Of a stretch of 64,000 nt of DNA, positions 35,674 through 58,959 are shown in pieces. Position numbers and translations under genes: made by a program. Numbering within the stretch: position 1 is the first letter of the stretch; each line of letters begins with the position of its first letter. Location of the stretch: positions 94,610 to 158,609 of the forward strand of contig CAJNOJ010000236.1 in NCBI GenBank assembly GCA_905250025.1, read 5' to 3'. The notes below the pieces were generated by a model. That model saw nothing but the letters and a program-made list of their open reading frames with translations. It made no database searches and was not told the DNA's origin. The DNA is from Adineta ricciae. Its lineage: Eukaryota > Rotifera > Eurotatoria > Adinetida > Adinetidae.

Positions 35674-36367
35674 TTATTTCGATTTCTTTTGTTTGATTTT
35701 TTTCATGTAGAAATCAAGTTCTTTGCCTTCGAGAACATAGCCATCGCATCGACCACATTGACCTGGTCGAGAAGCAACACAAGCGAGAACACGTCCGGCT
35801 TGAAATTGTTCTTCGAGTCCTTGTTCAACTTTAGCACGACGTTGTTTAACAGCGAGTTTCTTTTGCGATTTCGCAGAGCGTTTACGATTGAGAACAGCTT
35901 CTTCAGCTTCGGTTAATTTCACACCTTTCTTACGACCGAGTGGAAGGCCATAGTGTGATTCATACCATTGTCGGAATGGCACAGCATCGATTTGTACGAT
36001 GGTTGATTTTGTTAAAGTTTTCGTACGTACTAATTCCTAAAGAAAAAGGAGATCACAAGTGAAAATCTGCTGACTCATCGAGAACCAAATGAAGGCGACG
36101 TACGTTATTCGATGGATGGTACATAACATCGATGACACGAGTTTTCTTGGCAATGCCTTCTGAACCCCATGAGAAGTTTCCTATATCCAAACGAAGTGCG
36201 CGATATTTCTTATTACCACCGCGTGTTCGAACAGTGTGAATACGTTTTGCACCTAATTTGGTAAGAGCTGCCGGTCGACCTAATTCGAATTTTCGTTTTT
36301 TATGCGGTTGTGGACGTTTACCACCGGTCTTTCGTCGTTTATGCCAATGGTCACGGCTAATACCCAT
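35674..36367 (-). CDS. RPS8: 40S ribosomal protein S8 (eS8)
   Basis: This is a small-subunit ribosomal protein. Exon 1 (36104-36367) gives [20 protein letters not shown], then [40 protein letters not shown] and [11 protein letters not shown]. The intron starts GTACGT and ends CTTTAG (36037-36103). Exon 2 gives [58 protein letters not shown] and [20 protein letters not shown]. All match eS8 along the full length of about 205 residues. It is expected to be highly expressed. It diverges from the SLC17-like gene across a 424-bp promoter interval. Confidence 0.97.
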
Positions 36368-49920: not shown

Positions 49921-50271
49921 TTGAATACTGCTCCTCAAGCGCCGCCAATTTCAGCACTCTTACAAAGAGAATTAAATGATGCAACTGCCGAAATTCGAAC
50001 ACTCAAAGAACAACTCGAAAATGCGAGCACACGATTCCAACAACAGATAGTGCTACTGAAAAATCAAATGAAAACACAAATGGAAATGCTTGAAAGACAA
50101 CTGAAGCAACAACAAGATGCTAGTCAACGGTAGGAGAAAATTTTTAAGCAACGAAATTTATCGACTAAAACGACACAGTAAGCATTAATAATGTTAACAT
50201 CAGAATATAGTGTAATCTATGCTTACTTTTAATCTTTAGAATGGATGAAAGAGAATGTCTATGGTCACAGT
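49921..50271 (+). pseudogene. Coiled-coil gene fragment (3' exons only)
   Basis: A frame opens after an acceptor-like TTCTTTTAG and reads NTAPQAPPISALLQRELNDA, then a strong heptad coiled coil (EIRTLKEQLENASTRFQQQI, VLLKNQMKTQMEMLERQLKQ), and DASQ. It can splice (GTAGGA to CTTTAG) to a last exon reading RMDERECLWSQ and a stop near 50271. There is no in-frame ATG at the front and no upstream exon could be found across the 5S region. This is therefore either the 3' part of a gene with distant first exons or a remnant. The parent family is not identified. Confidence 0.4.
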
Positions 50272-51493
50272 AGATCTACAAAAATTCGTCTTAGTCGTAG
50301 AGGACCAAATGTTTGTAATCGTCATAGCAGCAAAAGTGATCCAACTATAACCCAAATAATATTGCAATAGATATTAATAATGTTTAAAAGTCTTTGAAAC
50401 TTTCTAAAAAATTATTCTTTTCATTCATGTTAATGACTATTTTTTCATATATGTAAATAGTTATTTTTATGTATATCAATTATTTTTCTTTATTGCTCAC
50501 TGAAATACTCTTCAATATCTTGCATACTCAAGTCATCAAATCCGATGCTGGATCTGACCGGATCCGACCATCTGATAAAATCCTATATTGGATCCGATGG
50601 GATTGTTCGGCCTGGGTATTGTTGCTCATCATTGGCCAGTCGAAATAATTTTGCGAATAAATAGATATGCATTTCAAATGATCAATTTGTGCGTTCAAAT
50701 ATTAAGCTAATCACTTAATTGGCAAAACTAGAATCCTTTTCAACTATTGATTGCTTATGTAACAGGAAACAGAGTTTTCTTTCTCTATCCAATATTCTAT
50801 AAGATTTTCAATATCAATGTATATCCAACATCACCGCGAAGCTAGCACGAACAAACGATGTGAATATTGGGACGCGTCGGCGTCGATTTTGAAGAAATTA
50901 TATGGTTTAGCAACAGCATCGATTCTCGGTGATCATTCCACTTTAGCTGGTGAAAACAAGAAGGTCATTTTGAATTCGTAAAGATGACACATTTATACTT
51001 TTAATCAAGCAAAGTCGCAATATTTTCGTGCTTTCATTTAATCAAATTTTTATACAAGCAATTTTAATGTAGTTTTTCTTTTCTCTTGTTGCAAAATAAA
51101 TTTTTTTTAAGATTCTCTTCCAGAAAAAAATACGATCTTAATGGATGCAAGAATATGAAAAAAAAAACTTCGGTATTTATGTCCCATTGCGTTGATCGAG
51201 TAATTAAACAAGTTCCGAAATTGATACGAAAACATCGATATCAAACGAATGAATCCAATTATTTCTCGGTCGGAGTGAAGAATATGTTAATAAGATTAAT
51301 GATTATTAATCATTTCAAAGTAGAAAACTAATTCGCATTTCCCGACGATTCCATCAAAGGAAAAATGACACGTCCCACGCGTATCGATCTCTTTTTCTCT
51401 CATCTTGCTATGTACTGCTATTTTTATAAGTGGAAAGTAATCGTTCAGACGACATTTATTCTCTCATTTATCTCGACGAAACACAACTTTATC
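50272..51493. other. Interval without confirmed gene
   Basis: A short open stretch near 50860-50983 (CEYWDASASILKKLYGLATA) looks protein-like but has no start or partner exons. The palindromic phrase GGATCTGACCGGATCCGACC near 50550 is repeat-like. The rest is AT-rich. Confidence 0.4.
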
Positions 51494-52002
51494 ATGCTAT
51501 CTAATACTCTTGTCCGATTAGCTATGGCCATGTGCCTTGCCTTCCTTCTCTTCACAACTGTTCTCGCTGCAACGAGTGTAAGTTTTACTTTCAAGTTTTA
51601 ATTTTAAATCATACGTTCATGCCGTTTTCATTTAGACATCGGACGTAAAAACTGAGTAAGATCAAAGATTGTGTGTTTTTAGTGAAACTCATCGGAGTCG
51701 ATTTTTGTAGAGCAAATGTTGAAGAAATACAATCAACAATAAACGAACCAGATGAAGATTTAAGTAAACTCTGCCAATATTTCTGTGCGAATAGCCATTT
51801 CTTTACTAAAAGGTAATTCAAACAACGAATTCTTTGTGTTTCAAGCACAACGAGAATTTCTTGTTGTTTTAGAGCTCCTTTGAAAGGTTTTGTTCATGGC
51901 CGATCAGTTAATGAAGAAACCGACAGTAGCGATGATCTTCTGGACAAACGTTTTGTCCATGGCAAACGTTTCGTTCATGGCAAACGTTTCGTTCATGGTT
52001 AA
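51494..52002 (+). CDS. Putative neuropeptide precursor with FVHG repeats
   Basis: The four-exon model gives about 106 residues. Exon 1 (51494-51577) is a signal peptide: MLSNTLVRLAMAMCLAFLLF, then TTVLAATS. Two short exons give TSDVKT and a spacer (VEEIQSTINEPDEDLSK) ending LCQYFCANSHFFTKR, with a CxxxC pair and a dibasic site. The last exon gives APLKGFVHGR, an acidic spacer (SVNEETDSSDDLLD), and KRFVHGKRFVHGKRFVHG, then stop. The last three repeats are 18-nt units at 51946-51963, 51964-51981 and 51982-51999. Processing at KR, trimming and amidation of the glycine would release FVH-amide copies and APLKGFVH-amide. Signal peptide, dibasic sites, C-terminal Gly and paracopies are the standard neuropeptide pattern. 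I do not recognise the FVHG family. Function and receptor are unknown. Confidence 0.75.
51946..51999 (+). repeat. Three tandem 18-nt KRFVHG codon units
   Basis: The units differ from one another at only two or three wobble positions (AAACGTTTTGTCCATGGC, then AAACGTTTCGTTCATGGC, then AAACGTTTCGTTCATGGT). They form the mature-peptide region of the putative neuropeptide precursor. Confidence 0.9.
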
Positions 52003-52340
52003 ATCTCATTAAACTGAATAAAAGATTGTCATTTTATGCACGCTTTCATTGTTCATGTCATCAGCAGAATAAAAATGAACTAGACATTGTATGTTTTTTA
52101 CTGACATCTACTGACCTGCTGTACACGGACGGATTGAAAGAGTTAGTTTCTGTTGACAACAATGAGAATGATGAAGTCGGAGAGAAAGGAAGGAGAATCG
52201 AGTCAGATGAAAAATACGAAGGCCTTCAATTTGATGGTTTAACAAAGCATCGACGCGAAAGAAGAAAAGTAACAAGTTGAATTGAATAAAAGAGAGTTTT
52301 GTCATTGCAACAAGAATCGAAAGACACTTCATCGGCAATC
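52003..52340. other. Spacer between neuropeptide-like gene and CEP164 homologue
   Basis: No gene is supported. An AATAAA near 52017 probably ends the neuropeptide message. A CATCAGCAG acceptor-like site near 52060 could belong to a 5' exon of the next gene. Confidence 0.4.
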
Positions 52341-55124
52341 ATGCACACAATTACGGAAAGTAAAGTCAATAATCAAACGATTCTCCAAGAACATATCGAC
52401 GAAAATTATGAACCAACTCCCGAAGAAATTCATGAATATGCTATTTACATTGGAATCGATCCTGATAAAGTAACTTTCGAACGCGAAATAGATGATTCAT
52501 TTCGATATGAAATTTAGGAGCCTCATTTACTTTGGTTGGCGAAAGAAGGAATTTTGAAGCCATTACCGCCAGGTTGGAAACCCTGTCAAGAAGAACACGG
52601 AGAATTATATTACTTCAATTTTGACACGGGCACATCATCATGGGATCATCCATGTGATGAAATTTACAAAGCACGTGTGATCGAAGAAAGGTAATTGGAT
52701 AAGCATTCTTTTTTGACAATTGTCCTTATTGTTTGCTGTTAGAAATAACCTAACATCCAATTTACAAGGAACCAATCTACGCGGTAAGATTTTTCATTTG
52801 GAAATATTGCCTTCCGAGAATGAATATGTTGAAGGTATATTGACCCAGACTGGGAGAAGTACATCAACGGTAACGGATTATCTAATTGGTGGAAAAGTTG
52901 CGGCTACTCTGGGAGATACAGCTGTAGTATCGAGAAATGTTGTTCAAACGAATAAACCTGGTAGGAACAGATTTTCGTCGGAGTAATGTCAAAATAAAGT
53001 CTCGCTTAGATCCAGCGTATGAATATAGTGACAACGAAATTGAAGAAGAACTAATGAACAGTGTCGACGATGATGAGGAACAGAGCAGTGATGATTTTCG
53101 AGGAAAAGTGGATTTTGGTTCGTAGTAGTCATCCATTGATTTATATGAGATTTACTGAAAGACTTGTTTTAGGTATCGATCCGTCGCTTTCCGCACGCAT
53201 TGAAGACGATGAAAAGAAGACACTTGCAAGATCGGCACTTACTCAATCTCGTTCGATTAATTCCCTGGAAAACACTAGTAGTTTTCCCAACTCAGAGTTT
53301 TCTCCAATGAATTACATCATTTTTCTTGCAGATCGAAGGCCTACTGTTCAAGAAAGTCTAGACAGTGATGAACCCGAAAATAACGAAACTAAGCGGAAGA
53401 GACTTGCAGACGCTGCTGAAAGACGTTCGTCTCATGTATACACAGCTAAATCAGAAGCTCATGTAAAGAGACATTTGACTTCGAATGGTATCGTGTACTT
53501 CGACGTTCTTTTTAGGACGATAATTTCATAACTCCACGTGAAGATCCGGATGTGACGAAATTTCGATTACGAATTGAACAGTAAGAATACGTGCCTAATT
53601 GTCTATTCATTAGGATTTGTTACTTAATTAGATCTACCAATGACGAGAAGCTGCAAATCTTAGAAGAACATCGCGCACAGATCGAAAAAATAAAAGCTGA
53701 ACAACGGCAAGAAAAAGATAAAGAAGAAAAGGCATTGCGTGATAAAATGAAAACAGATCTTGCGTAAGACAAGTTTAAGAAAACTTTTAAAGATTGTCCA
53801 TTATTGTTCCAATTTAGTTCAATCGAAAGTGAAGTACGTGAAACAGTGGCTCGTGAGAGGAAATTGTTAGAAAGTCGAAAGCAAGATGAAATCAATCATA
53901 TCAAAGAAGCAATTGAAAAGGAAAAGGAAGATTTGAAGAAAAAACTACGGTAATTTCTACGAATAAGAAAAAAACGAATAATAAGATTTGTACAAATTTA
54001 GCACAAGCATGCAGGTAGATTTGGATGTGTACAAAGGATCACTTGAACAACAAAGTAATATGAATGTTCAAGTTCGATCGTTAAATGATAAACTTGCGCA
54101 GGAAAAACGCGATTTCGAAGAGGTTTGATTTAGAGTAATCATGAAATTTCAACATTTGTCTTCTACGTTTATAGAAAATCCGTCAGCTAGAAACTCGACA
54201 TAAGACTGAAACAGATGATCTAACACGACGTCTCGAACAAGCAAAATCAGATAAAGAAAAATTAGAAAAGCATATCAGAGAGGTAAACTGTCATTGGAGA
54301 AAAAAAAACCTACATTTATCATCGCTAAGTAGAAGGACAATCTTAATCTGACAATGCAACGAACAATCGATCAATTAAGTGCTGATAAAGGATCCCTCGA
54401 ACGTAAATTACAAGATGCGGAATTACAACTAAAAGCGATTGACAACAGCCATCGTCAAACTCAATCATCTAATAATCGTAAATCGTTACGAACTATTAGT
54501 GATAACGAAACTGATGACGATGATGACGATAACCATCGTGATAGTGAAAAGTCGAAATCGAACAAAATCTCCACAAGACATCACAATGGCTTTCATCACG
54601 ACGAAGACGATATTGATCGACTAAGTGATACTGACAGCGATGTTATGGAAATGGAACAAACTTTAAAACAATTACGACTTACTCAACTTGAGTACATGTC
54701 CCTACTTCCGATTACAAATCTCGATGAAACTAAGCAACGTTCGTCAGTGAAACCGAGTCCAGCTGCAACAGTTGACTTCAGTAAACTGTCGGTTGCAGAT
54801 GTCGGTCCTGTCATACGAAATATTCGAACGATGCAGCGGAATACTCCAAGATTATACGATTCGGTCGAAACAACATCGAATCCACTATTAACTGATTCAG
54901 GTCGATGGTCAAATAGTTTAGTATCAACACTGGGTAATAATGTTAACTCGTTATCGATGTATCCAACGTTAAGCCCATATCAATCGAGTTTAACGAAAAC
55001 TAATCATTGGACTTCGCAACCAAATCTCGTGACAAGAGAAGCCGTTTTGAAAGCAGCGCGTCGTGTGTTTGCACCTGCTGTTATTGATCAATTAACAACC
55101 AATACAAGAGCATCCACCCATTGA
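52341..55124 (+). CDS. CEP164: CEP164-like centriole appendage protein (short form)
   Basis: CEP164 sits on centriole distal appendages and is needed for ciliogenesis; its WW domain binds TTBK2. The start ATG at 52341 leads to [20 protein letters not shown], then DPDK, spliced (GTAACT to TTTAG, next exon from 52518) to [20 protein letters not shown], followed by the WW domain ([31 protein letters not shown]). This matches the CEP164 N-terminus closely. An acidic middle region ([20 protein letters not shown]) and a long coiled coil follow ([60 protein letters not shown]). The C-terminal part is Ser-rich and reads [20 protein letters not shown] near the stop. About ten short introns occur. The product of roughly 660 residues is less than half of the vertebrate protein. 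Confidence 0.85.
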
Positions 55125-55643: not shown

Positions 55644-57075
55644 ATGACTCTGATGATGGCCGGCTACCGATTTATATCGATTTGCGTTTTTGCCTTTGTT
55701 CTTGAAGTTCGATCGACTGATCCGAGTTGTAAAGGCGTCTTAAATACAAATGAAATTTTACGAGAAGAACCCAGATTCGTAAGTTCCATTGGAAATGGAA
55801 AGCGTTATGTTGTTGGATCTGGCTACGACAAGATTCATATATTGCATGTTTATGGCGGCACACCCTATGATATGGGTTATGCATACGGAAAACTAATGAG
55901 TGAAGAATTGAAGCAACTTGTTCCAGAGTATTTCACCTATCTGGAAAATAAAGTCGAATCTTTGATCAAAGAATTGCCACCGGTGAGAATGACGACGTTT
56001 TGTTTCACATTCGTTAATTTACTTTTGCTCTATATTCGGTTAGTTAGTGGCAAAGTGGATTGCTGAATTAGGTTTGAAAGGTGCTCTCGATCTTAATTAT
56101 GATATCACTCGTATTTATACTCCACCATGGTACGACGAAGAATTACGAGGATTGGCGGCCGGCAGTGGTATTTCATATCAAGATATTCGTCGACTTAACT
56201 TACTTCCTGAACTTATTAAAGCTGCATGCACTGTTTTAGGTGCTTGGGGCGAATCGACAGTAACGACTACAACTTTGCTTCATCTCCGTTCATTGGATTG
56301 GGATGAAAATGCTCCTATTGCCAAATATGCGGCAATCACTGTCTACCATCCAAATGCATCGTATGAAGGTTATACTGAGCATTATCACAATTATTACAAA
56401 CAAAACTATTCGACGTCGCATACATTTGCTAATTTTGGCTATACTGGTCTGATTGGATCGATTGGAGCTTACAACGATGTGTCAGTTGGTCTAGGTCAAA
56501 AAGTCTGGATTACGAAAGAACAAGATATTACATCCCGTTTAGGAAATCCATGGACTTATGTGCTTCGAGATGTTATTCAATTCTCCGATTCAATTGATAC
56601 AGCATTAACAATGCTTTTAAATGCCAAGCGGACTTGCTCCGTTCACCTTGGCCTTGGCGAGTACCATCGAAATACGTCGTCAGCTAGTGAACGAACAATC
56701 GATTTTCTCGGTATTGAATACAGTGCGAAAGAATTCAATGTTTTCTCATGGAAAGATATGTACAATACACCTAATCATCCAATTCTGAATGATGTTGTCT
56801 ACTGGGATCCATACGTTCAACCATCGAATAACAAATGCTTGGGTAGTTTACTGATCGAGCATTATGGTAAACTTGATCCGCCGACAATCATTCGAAATAT
56901 TACCAGTTTGTTAAGAACAGGCAATACACTTAATTTAGTTCTTGATTATGCTGAAAATGCTGCCTACTTGGCATATAGTGCACCGGATGATCCACAGGGA
57001 CCTCTAGAAGCTTTCAATCGTGTTCACACAAGAATTGACATGGCTAAATTGTTCGCAGAGTCCGCACCAAAATAA
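55644..57075 (+). CDS. Secreted Ntn-hydrolase, acid-ceramidase/Dcd1-like (copy 1)
   Basis: The product has about 450 residues with a signal peptide (GYRFISICVFAFVLEVRS). An intron near 55984-56045 splits LPP from LVAKWIAELGLKGALDL. Downstream blocks: PPWYDEELRGLAAGSGISYQ, LLPELIKAACTVLGAWGEST, LLHLRSLDWDENAPIAKYAA, IGLGQ-type VGLGQKVWITKEQDI, GNPWTYVLRDVIQFSDSIDT and YSAPDDPQGPLEAFNRVHTR. The Cys at 56225-56227 in AACTVLGAWG is in the position of the autocatalytic N-terminal nucleophile of Ntn-hydrolases of the C45/acid-ceramidase type. Similar proteins in amoebae are named Dcd1. The likely reaction is amide-bond hydrolysis of a lipid or acylated substrate in lysosome or gut; the substrate is not determined. 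Several N-glycosylation sites (NAS, NTS, NIT) fit a secreted protein. It is tandem with copy 2. Confidence 0.75.
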
Positions 57076-57352: not shown

Positions 57353-58762
57353 ATGAATAGCGTTTGTCTTCTATTATTTTCTGTCTTCACTCTGATCAGT
57401 GTCGTTCAACTTGCTGATCCAAATTGTAATGGTAAACCCAATACAAATGCGATTGTACGCACTGCACCGGTTCTTGTGAGTTCCATATCAAACGGAAAAC
57501 GTTTCATCGTTGGATCGGGCTACGACAAGATCCACATAGTGCATCTTTATGGCGGTACACCTTATGATATGGGTTATGCATACGGCAAATTGATGAGCAA
57601 AGAAATACAAGCACTTATTCCAGAATATTATGAATACCTCGATAAAACTATTGAAGATGCTTTGAAAAAGCTTCCACCTGTACGTATATGAAAATATCTT
57701 CTATATGGATGCGACTTGTATTTTTGCCTATAGTTTGTTGCGAAATGGATTGCAGAATTAGGTTTACCCGGCGCTCTTGATCTCACATATGAAATTACAC
57801 GTTTTTATACCCCACCATGGTATGATGAAGAATTGCGCGGTTTAGCAGCTGGCAGTGGTATTTCGTATGAGAATCTTCGACGAATGAATTTGCTTCCAGA
57901 ATTGATCAAAGCGGCATGTACTGTTTTGGGTGCTTGGGGCGAATCGACTACTTCATCAACTCTACTCCATTTACGAGCACTTGATTGGGATGATAAAGCA
58001 CCTATTGCTAAATATGCTACAGTCGTTGTTTATCATCCAAATGCCTCTTACGAAGGTTACACACAAAATTTTCATAAATATTACAGACAGGAAAATTACA
58101 AATCTCATGCATTTGCTAATTTTGGCTACCTCGGTCTCATCGGATCACTTAGTGCTTACAGCGAAGCGTCTATCGGTTTAGGTGAAAAAGTCTGGATCAC
58201 TAAAGAAACTGATATTACTACCCGTTTCGGAAATCCATGGACCTATGTTCTACGTGATGTCATTCAATTCGCTGATTCTATTGATACAGCTTTAACTATG
58301 ATTGCCAACGCTCACCGAACTTGTTCCATTCATCTTGGTCTCGGCGCTTATGAACGTAATGCAACTTCCCACGGTGATCAAAATGTTGGATTCCGTGGTA
58401 TTGAATATAGTGCGAAAGAATTGAATATTTTCAATTGGCAAGATATGTACAATACGCCCAACCATCCAATTTTGAAAGATGTCGTCTACTGGGACAAACA
58501 TGTTCAACCGTCAAATGATCCATGTTTAGGTAGTTTACTAGTTGGTCAATATGGTCATCTTAATGCTGCAAACATTATCCAAAATATCACCAGTCTTTCG
58601 GAAACTGGTGACGCGCTCAATTTAATTATGGATTACGCTGAAAATGCTGCTTATATTGCCTATAGTGCACCTGACGATCCACAAGGACCTTTGGAAGCTT
58701 TCAATCGTGCTCATACAAGACTTGACATGGCACAATTGTTTGCTGAACCTTCGCCGAAATAG
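57353..58762 (+). CDS. Secreted Ntn-hydrolase, acid-ceramidase/Dcd1-like (copy 2)
   Basis: This is a paralogue of the preceding gene, 277 bp downstream, same strand. The signal peptide is MNSVCLLLFSVFTLISVVQL. The single intron (about 57680-57733, GTACGT to CTATAG) is at the same place, between LPP and FVAKWIAELGLPGALDL. The nucleophile Cys lies at 57916-57918 in AACTVLGAWG. The body parallels copy 1 block for block: HLRALDWDDKAPIAKYATVV, SIGLGEKVWITKETDITTRF, DVIQFADSIDTALTMIANAH, DMYNTPNHPILKDVVYWDKH and APDDPQGPLEAFNRAHTRLD. Both copies look intact, and most differences are conservative. This suggests a maintained duplication, perhaps with different substrates or expression. An AATAAA lies near 58780. 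Confidence 0.75.
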
Positions 58763-58959
58763 AGACGACAGTTTTTTCAAATAAAACATTTCTTGACTTT
58801 ATCTTTGTTGTTCGCCTAGAGAACATTTTATTCTGTTTTAATCTTCAAATTTGCAGAAAAGGAAAGAAACAAAGAGACACAGAATAGAACAATATACATT
58901 GAAAAAGAAAAACCAAAACAACATCGATAACAACCTTTTCATATGTCCTAATTCATTTT

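Follow-up and report, generated by a model that had tools for sequence, protein, structure and literature searches.

Several families of short amidated neuropeptides offer the closest described parallels to the gene reported here. Precursors of TRH-type peptides, found in vertebrates, echinoderms, a cephalochordate and, as EFLGamide, in protostomes, share a signal peptide followed by multiple copies of 3-4-residue units plus Gly, bounded by dibasic sites; TRH itself is a tripeptide (available sections of PMC4772807). Trochozoan RGWamide/APGWamide precursors contain multiple very short amidated peptides together with one cysteine pair, and in most of them the peptides lie towards the N-terminus and the C-terminus carries two cysteines separated by 20-30 residues; dipeptides have been reported from APGWamide precursors (available sections of PMC8557429). 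In rotifers, genome and transcriptome searches have yielded the EP/CCHamide peptides (PMC6617912, in part) and FCAP-related peptides of 11 residues in 8 or 9 copies (PMC6425005, in part). The available sections of PMC8557429 also report that very few precursors were found in a study of three Rotaria species, and term a gnathiferan survey the next frontier.

The window analysed here is a stretch of 64,000 nucleotides from the rotifer Adineta ricciae (C236:94610-158609), and the genome searched comprises 130 Mb in 1033 contigs. A four-exon gene in this window most probably specifies the precursor of a secreted neuropeptide (peptide hormone) and would yield FVH-NH2 and one longer copy. FVH-NH2 is very probably a tiny three-residue signalling peptide, about the size of human TRH. 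The likeness to TRH-type precursors is one of layout; the motif here is FVH, N-terminal Gln is lacking and a CxxFC segment stands before the repeats. TRH is also a multicopy tripeptide amide between dibasic sites, and peptides of this type vary widely (pQHP, pQSP, pQWYT and FSEFLG amides), as the same sections of PMC4772807 describe, which would leave room for the rotifer precursor to be a diverged TRH/EFLGamide family member; however, N-terminal Gln and the EFLG motif are both absent, the predicted peptides start with Phe or Ala, and we regard such a relationship as distinctly unlikely.

RGWamide/APGWamide precursors are similar in their multiple very short peptides and single cysteine pair, but the cysteines here (residues 56 and 60) precede the repeats and the precursor is without any W. 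Because the peptide-level features of both groups are not found in it, the precursor is placed in neither TRH/EFLGamide nor RGWamide/APGWamide. The spiralian F[V/L/I]amide motif has Phe-Val in a short amidated peptide, as here, whereas here it is His, the residue after FV, that would carry the amide. This family is named in the available sections of PMC8557429. Unlike FVH-NH2, EP/CCHamide has two conserved cysteines inside the peptide, and the FVH motif is not mentioned for rotifer EP/CCHamide or FCAP in the portions available (PMC6617912, PMC6425005).

The predicted peptide and repeat strings (for example FVH-NH2, KRFVHG and LKGFVH) were absent from the open-licence literature searched, and within that literature the earlier suggestion of an undescribed FVH-amide family is supported. 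Pfam searches with the window protein and that of an older duplicate (C32, below) reached at best 14.8 bits, with five unrelated families listed whose cut-offs are 23.9 to 28.7. A phmmer search of the PDB with the window protein gave nothing below E = 0.11; the match at that value, cytochrome c-550 (residues 7-65), was taken as chance. Judged by its sequence, we take this to be a new neuropeptide family and not a new mechanism; multicopy short amidated neuropeptides are well known.

Gene structure

Joining 51494-51577, 51636-51655, 51711-51812 and 51873-52002, with splicing deduced from the DNA itself, gives an in-frame 111-residue protein, MLSNTLVRLAMAMCLAFLLFTTVLAATSTSDVKTEANVEEIQSTINEPDEDLSKLCQYFCANSHFFTKRAPLKGFVHGRSVNEETDSSDDLLDKRFVHGKRFVHGKRFVHG; all three introns run from GT to AG, with lengths of 58, 55 and 60 bases. 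The precursor is ordered as a signal-like start, an acidic segment with CxxFC, KR, APLKGFVHG-R, an acidic spacer and three KRFVHG units, the last ending as FVHG-stop. The features are as follows.

51419..51425, + strand: TATA-like matches, first bases 75 and 69 before the ATG
51494..51577, + strand: exon 1, 28 codons, phase 0 end, 84 bases in all three copies
within exon 1, + strand: signal-peptide-like segment MLSNTLVRLAMAMCLAFLLFTTVLA, cleavage likely near VLA/ATS
51578..51635, + strand: intron 1, GTAAGT...ATTTAG, 58 bases, phase 0, place and phase kept in C149 and C32
51636..51655, + strand: exon 2, TSDVKT and two bases of E35, 20 bases in all three copies
51656..51710, + strand: intron 2, GTAAGA...TTGTAG, 55 bases
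51711..51812, + strand: exon 3, acidic spacer, CxxFC segment and FTKR, 102 bases in all three copies
51769..51807, + strand: CxxxC segment LCQYFCANSHFFT, dibasic at its C-terminal flank only
51813..51872, + strand: intron 3, GTAATT...TTTTAG, 60 bases, place and phase kept in all three copies
51873..52002, + strand: exon 4, APLKGFVHGR, acidic spacer, three KRFVHG units, stop TAA at 52000-52002
51874..51900, + strand: APLKGFVHG, KR before and Arg79 after, predicted APLKGFVH-NH2
51946-51963, 51964-51981 and 51982-51999, + strand: three tandem KRFVHG units, predicted three FVH-NH2
52017..52022, + strand: AATAAA poly(A) signal, 15 bases past the stop

Two points of the model allow a choice. At intron 2, the window has another AG closer by, but its use would run into an in-frame stop and the allele-like copy C149 has AA at that place; this favours the TTGTAG acceptor. 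As for the start, the open frame (51332-51601) contains in-frame ATGs ahead of the one at 51494; the latter is supported by the C32 protein, which aligns from Met1, and by a TATA-like match that precedes it by 69-75 bases in each of the three copies. The offsets of these matches from the ATG are -75/-69 in the window and C149 and -73/-71 in C32, obtained with loose patterns and without a chance control. Upstream in-frame ATGs were considered as starts and, given the C32 alignment, are not favoured. Past the stop, AATAAA lies at 15 bases in the window, 15 in C149 and 28 in C32, with a second AATAAA at 66 in each.

The preliminary description had proposed four joined exons encoding a signal peptide, dibasic KR sites around repeated units that end in Gly, and four FVHG units generated in part by tandem 18-nt duplication. 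The exons stand as proposed, with GT-AG introns, an intact frame and the same structure in two further copies. One FVHG lies in APLKGFVHGR and three in KRFVHG units, and the KR sites around them are kept between old duplicates. Tandem Repeats Finder confirms an 18-base unit in 3.0 copies (51945-51998). The signal peptide agrees with our own hydropathy heuristic, in which the best 12-residue mean is 2.71, 2.71 and 2.81, with a (-3,-1) site, in the three copies, a value of 2.7 with such a site also being reached by 6 of the 470 open reading frames of at least 25 residues in the window.

Copies in the same genome

A DNA search of the genome with exon 4 identified three places: the window, C149 (96%) and C32 (74%). 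A protein search with E up to 10 gave eight matches among the best candidates scored, all within these loci. In every locus the exons are 84, 20 and 102 bases long, followed by a fourth of 130, 148 or 154 bases, and are separated by GT-AG introns of 51-60 bases at three identical positions and phases. Bdelloids are degenerate tetraploids, in which an allele-like pair and an old duplicate occur together. C149 is an allele-like copy of the window gene (dS 0.10) and C32 an old duplicate (dS about 1.1). Because the window and C149 are allelic or close to it, the three copies are only partly independent and provide one old and one young comparison; both diverged lineages (window/C149 and C32) come from one genome of one animal.

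The earlier reading had looked for conservation of the FVHG/KR pattern in related species; within this one genome, the old duplicate keeps it exactly, together with all three introns. KRFVHG units number three in the window, four in C149 and four in C32, and C32 has AYLKGFVH where the window has APLKGFVH, predicting AYLKGFVH-NH2. The allele-like copies differ in unit count, three in the window (51946-51999) against four in C149 (L002:1572-1643), and by two residues in the remaining coding sequence. A codon pattern for KRFVHGKR matches the genome eight times (two in the window, three in C149, three in C32), and its reversed control gives 0. As expected for an animal gene, 25 pattern matches in viral contigs and 77 in prokaryote genome contigs yielded 0 confirmed cases. 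In six frames of the window, the more general motif dibasic-xxx-G-KR occurs three times, twice in this gene and once on the other strand at 36337.

Genomic surroundings

The window region and C149 are 93.9% identical over 5.6 kb and 94.9% over 8.4 kb. The order of an upstream stretch at 50861-50976, read here as the last exon of an upstream gene, the FVHG gene and a WW-domain gene (match 52361-52694) is also kept in C32. The WW domain of the downstream gene lies at 52518-52694 (Pfam PF00397, E = 5.5e-10), and the gene presumably resembles CEP164.

Several other observations were made nearby. When 44-64 kb of the window was compared, homology to C149 began at 49974, at 89% to 50508, with a break to 50570, and sequence upstream that is common to C149 and C32 (L004:1159-1412) has no match in the window stretch. 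It looks as if a rearrangement or deletion in the window haplotype cut the upstream gene. Two segments of about 1.35 kb each, 55717-57074 and 57440-58787, are each about 74% identical to the other's C149 counterpart and have the appearance of a tandem duplication. The first exons of the WW-domain gene occur once more, about 78% identical to the window, at about 4154-4489 of L033 (C105:36000-45000); neither FVHG nor LKGF occurs beside it in six frames of that 9-kb stretch. Arrays of (TGTGGG)n, which we take to be the bdelloid telomere repeat, are present on six contigs with 28 overlapping matches, the reversed control being a rotation of the same pattern and for that reason uninformative.

Selection on the precursor

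Over the whole coding sequence (110 codons), the window and C32 differ with dN 0.315 and dS 1.12, and the changes are distributed very unevenly. The signal region has a dN of 0.41, the first spacer 0.54, LCQYFCANSHFFTKR 0.46 and the acidic spacer 0.26, against 0.095 for APLKGFVHGR and 0.024 for the KRFVHG units. The dS of the KRFVHG units is 1.74, within a set of six part-wise dS values of which two are saturated. Their residual dN of 0.024 results from one Arg codon pair (CGT/AGA) in which the residue is unchanged. Between the window units and the last three units of C32, base changes at codon positions 1, 2 and 3 number 1, 0 and 7, with no residue change. In the four units of C149 and C32, 10 of 72 bases differ (1, 0 and 9 by codon position) and 0 of 24 residues, and in 200,000 random placements of 10 changes, 0 left the repeat peptide unchanged. 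The dN values by part, together with the unchanged residues of the units, therefore indicate that FVHG and the KR sites are held most tightly by selection.

Taken alone, plain DNA identity is uninformative. Identity between the window and C32 is 0.75, 0.78, 0.69 and 0.81 for exons 1-4, 0.76, 0.73 and 0.85 for introns 1-3 (shuffled, 0.74, 0.70 and 0.72), and 0.77 and 0.81 for the 5' and 3' flanks, which were aligned without a shuffle control. For exons 1-3, it is no better than near that in gapped alignments of shuffled introns (0.70-0.74). Since exons 1-3 and introns 1-2 are near the shuffled level, the old comparison rests on reading frame, splice places and codon pattern. Such values, along with the fact that the units are a tandem DNA repeat, could suggest chance open frames around a microsatellite-like 18-base repeat, with no gene at all. 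Against this, the differences between the repeats of different copies are almost all at third codon positions, and the copies share their exons, intron phases, AATAAA and gene order; the C32 copy is itself evidence to the contrary, and chance frames have next to no likelihood. The locus is a real conserved gene, as seen in its structure, its conservation in two further copies and selection on the KRFVHG units.

The CxxxC segment

The preliminary description had also suggested that a separate CxxxC peptide may be released, and this, the weakest part of its proposal, stands only partly. Cys56, Phe59, Cys60, Asn62, Phe66, Thr67 and the following KR are kept in all three copies, as is Lys54, a possible monobasic site; on the other side, the segment changes fast (dN 0.46) and has no N-terminal dibasic site. 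Release of LCQYFCANSHFFT would need a cut after the single Lys (K54), the sole dibasic site being C-terminal to it. The shared residues (both cysteines, F59, N62, FTKR and Lys54) could even indicate that this segment is the true hormone and the FVHG units a processed tail, but a dN of 0.46, while the FVHG units are without any residue change, and an N-terminus lacking a dibasic site make this very improbable. We consider the acidic CxxFC segment less likely to be the main ligand than a pro-region whose small disulfide loop aids folding or granule sorting. Its acidic upstream sequence, fast change, one-sided dibasic flank and position before the peptides would all fit a pro-region better than a second hormone.

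Predicted processing of the precursor

Secretion, cleavage, amidation, neuronal expression and a receptor are what we infer for this precursor. The N-terminal signal would route it into the secretory pathway, where a proprotein convertase would cleave behind each KR pair and behind the lone Arg of HGR. K and R would then be trimmed by a carboxypeptidase, and the exposed C-terminal Gly converted to an amide by an amidating monooxygenase. The last unit ends as FVHG-stop, so no carboxypeptidase would be required there. The predicted products are three FVH-NH2 (four each from C149 and C32) and one APLKGFVH-NH2 (AYLKGFVH-NH2 in C32). Their calculated m/z values are 401.2296 for FVH-NH2 (MH+), 434.2636 for APLKGFVH-NH2 (2+) and 467.2689 for AYLKGFVH-NH2 (2+). 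In the extended copy, the single Arg after Gly is a weaker cleavage site. With its free N-terminus, FVH-NH2 might be broken down quickly; it most likely acts on a G-protein-coupled receptor of target cells.

Convertase and amidating-enzyme genes, as neuropeptide processing requires, are present in the genome, here in the form of gene fragments. A fragment of peptidylglycine amidating monooxygenase (L024) matches solved PAM/PHM at 5e-15, all 13 PDB matches listed being that enzyme, and has Cu2_monoox_C above the Pfam cut-off; the amidating-enzyme piece at L024:2472-2657 matched no Pfam family. A furin/kexin-like convertase (L039) matches furin at 7e-49, and P_proprotein has 13 matches in the genome. 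7B2 is a chaperone of a neuroendocrine convertase. Its family, Secretogranin_V, has three genome matches above cut-off; of two 7B2 pieces in L027, one is above the cut-off and the second scores 21.3 bits against a cut-off of 25.

A signal, KR sites and repeats would fit any regulated secretory peptide, and the same KR cleavage could serve a secreted but non-neuronal precursor from a gland or the gut, or an antimicrobial one. However, short units with Gly and dibasic sites form the neuropeptide amidation pattern, as in TRH-type precursors (available sections of PMC4772807), and 7B2 is present in the genome. For the antimicrobial version, three residues would be too few for a membrane-active peptide. 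A non-neuronal role thus appears unlikely, and the initial reading as a neuropeptide precursor with amidatable FVHG repeats draws support from the frozen units, the conserved introns and the processing-enzyme genes.

Implications for rotifer neuropeptides

Studies of spiralian neuropeptides have covered rotifers and other gnathiferans only sparsely. A precursor of this type is easily missed by homology search, which may partly explain the short lists of rotifer neuropeptides. If the tripeptide amide is real, it would rank among the shortest peptide signals encoded by genes, and, being so small, FVH-NH2 should be easy to synthesise, to test on animals and to match to a receptor. In old duplicates whose peptides are frozen and whose spacers are free to change, it is plain to see what selection keeps. 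The chances are about even that FVH-NH2, with its own receptor, is a lineage-restricted signal that passed unaltered through the ancient genome duplication of bdelloids and does not occur in other groups of animals.
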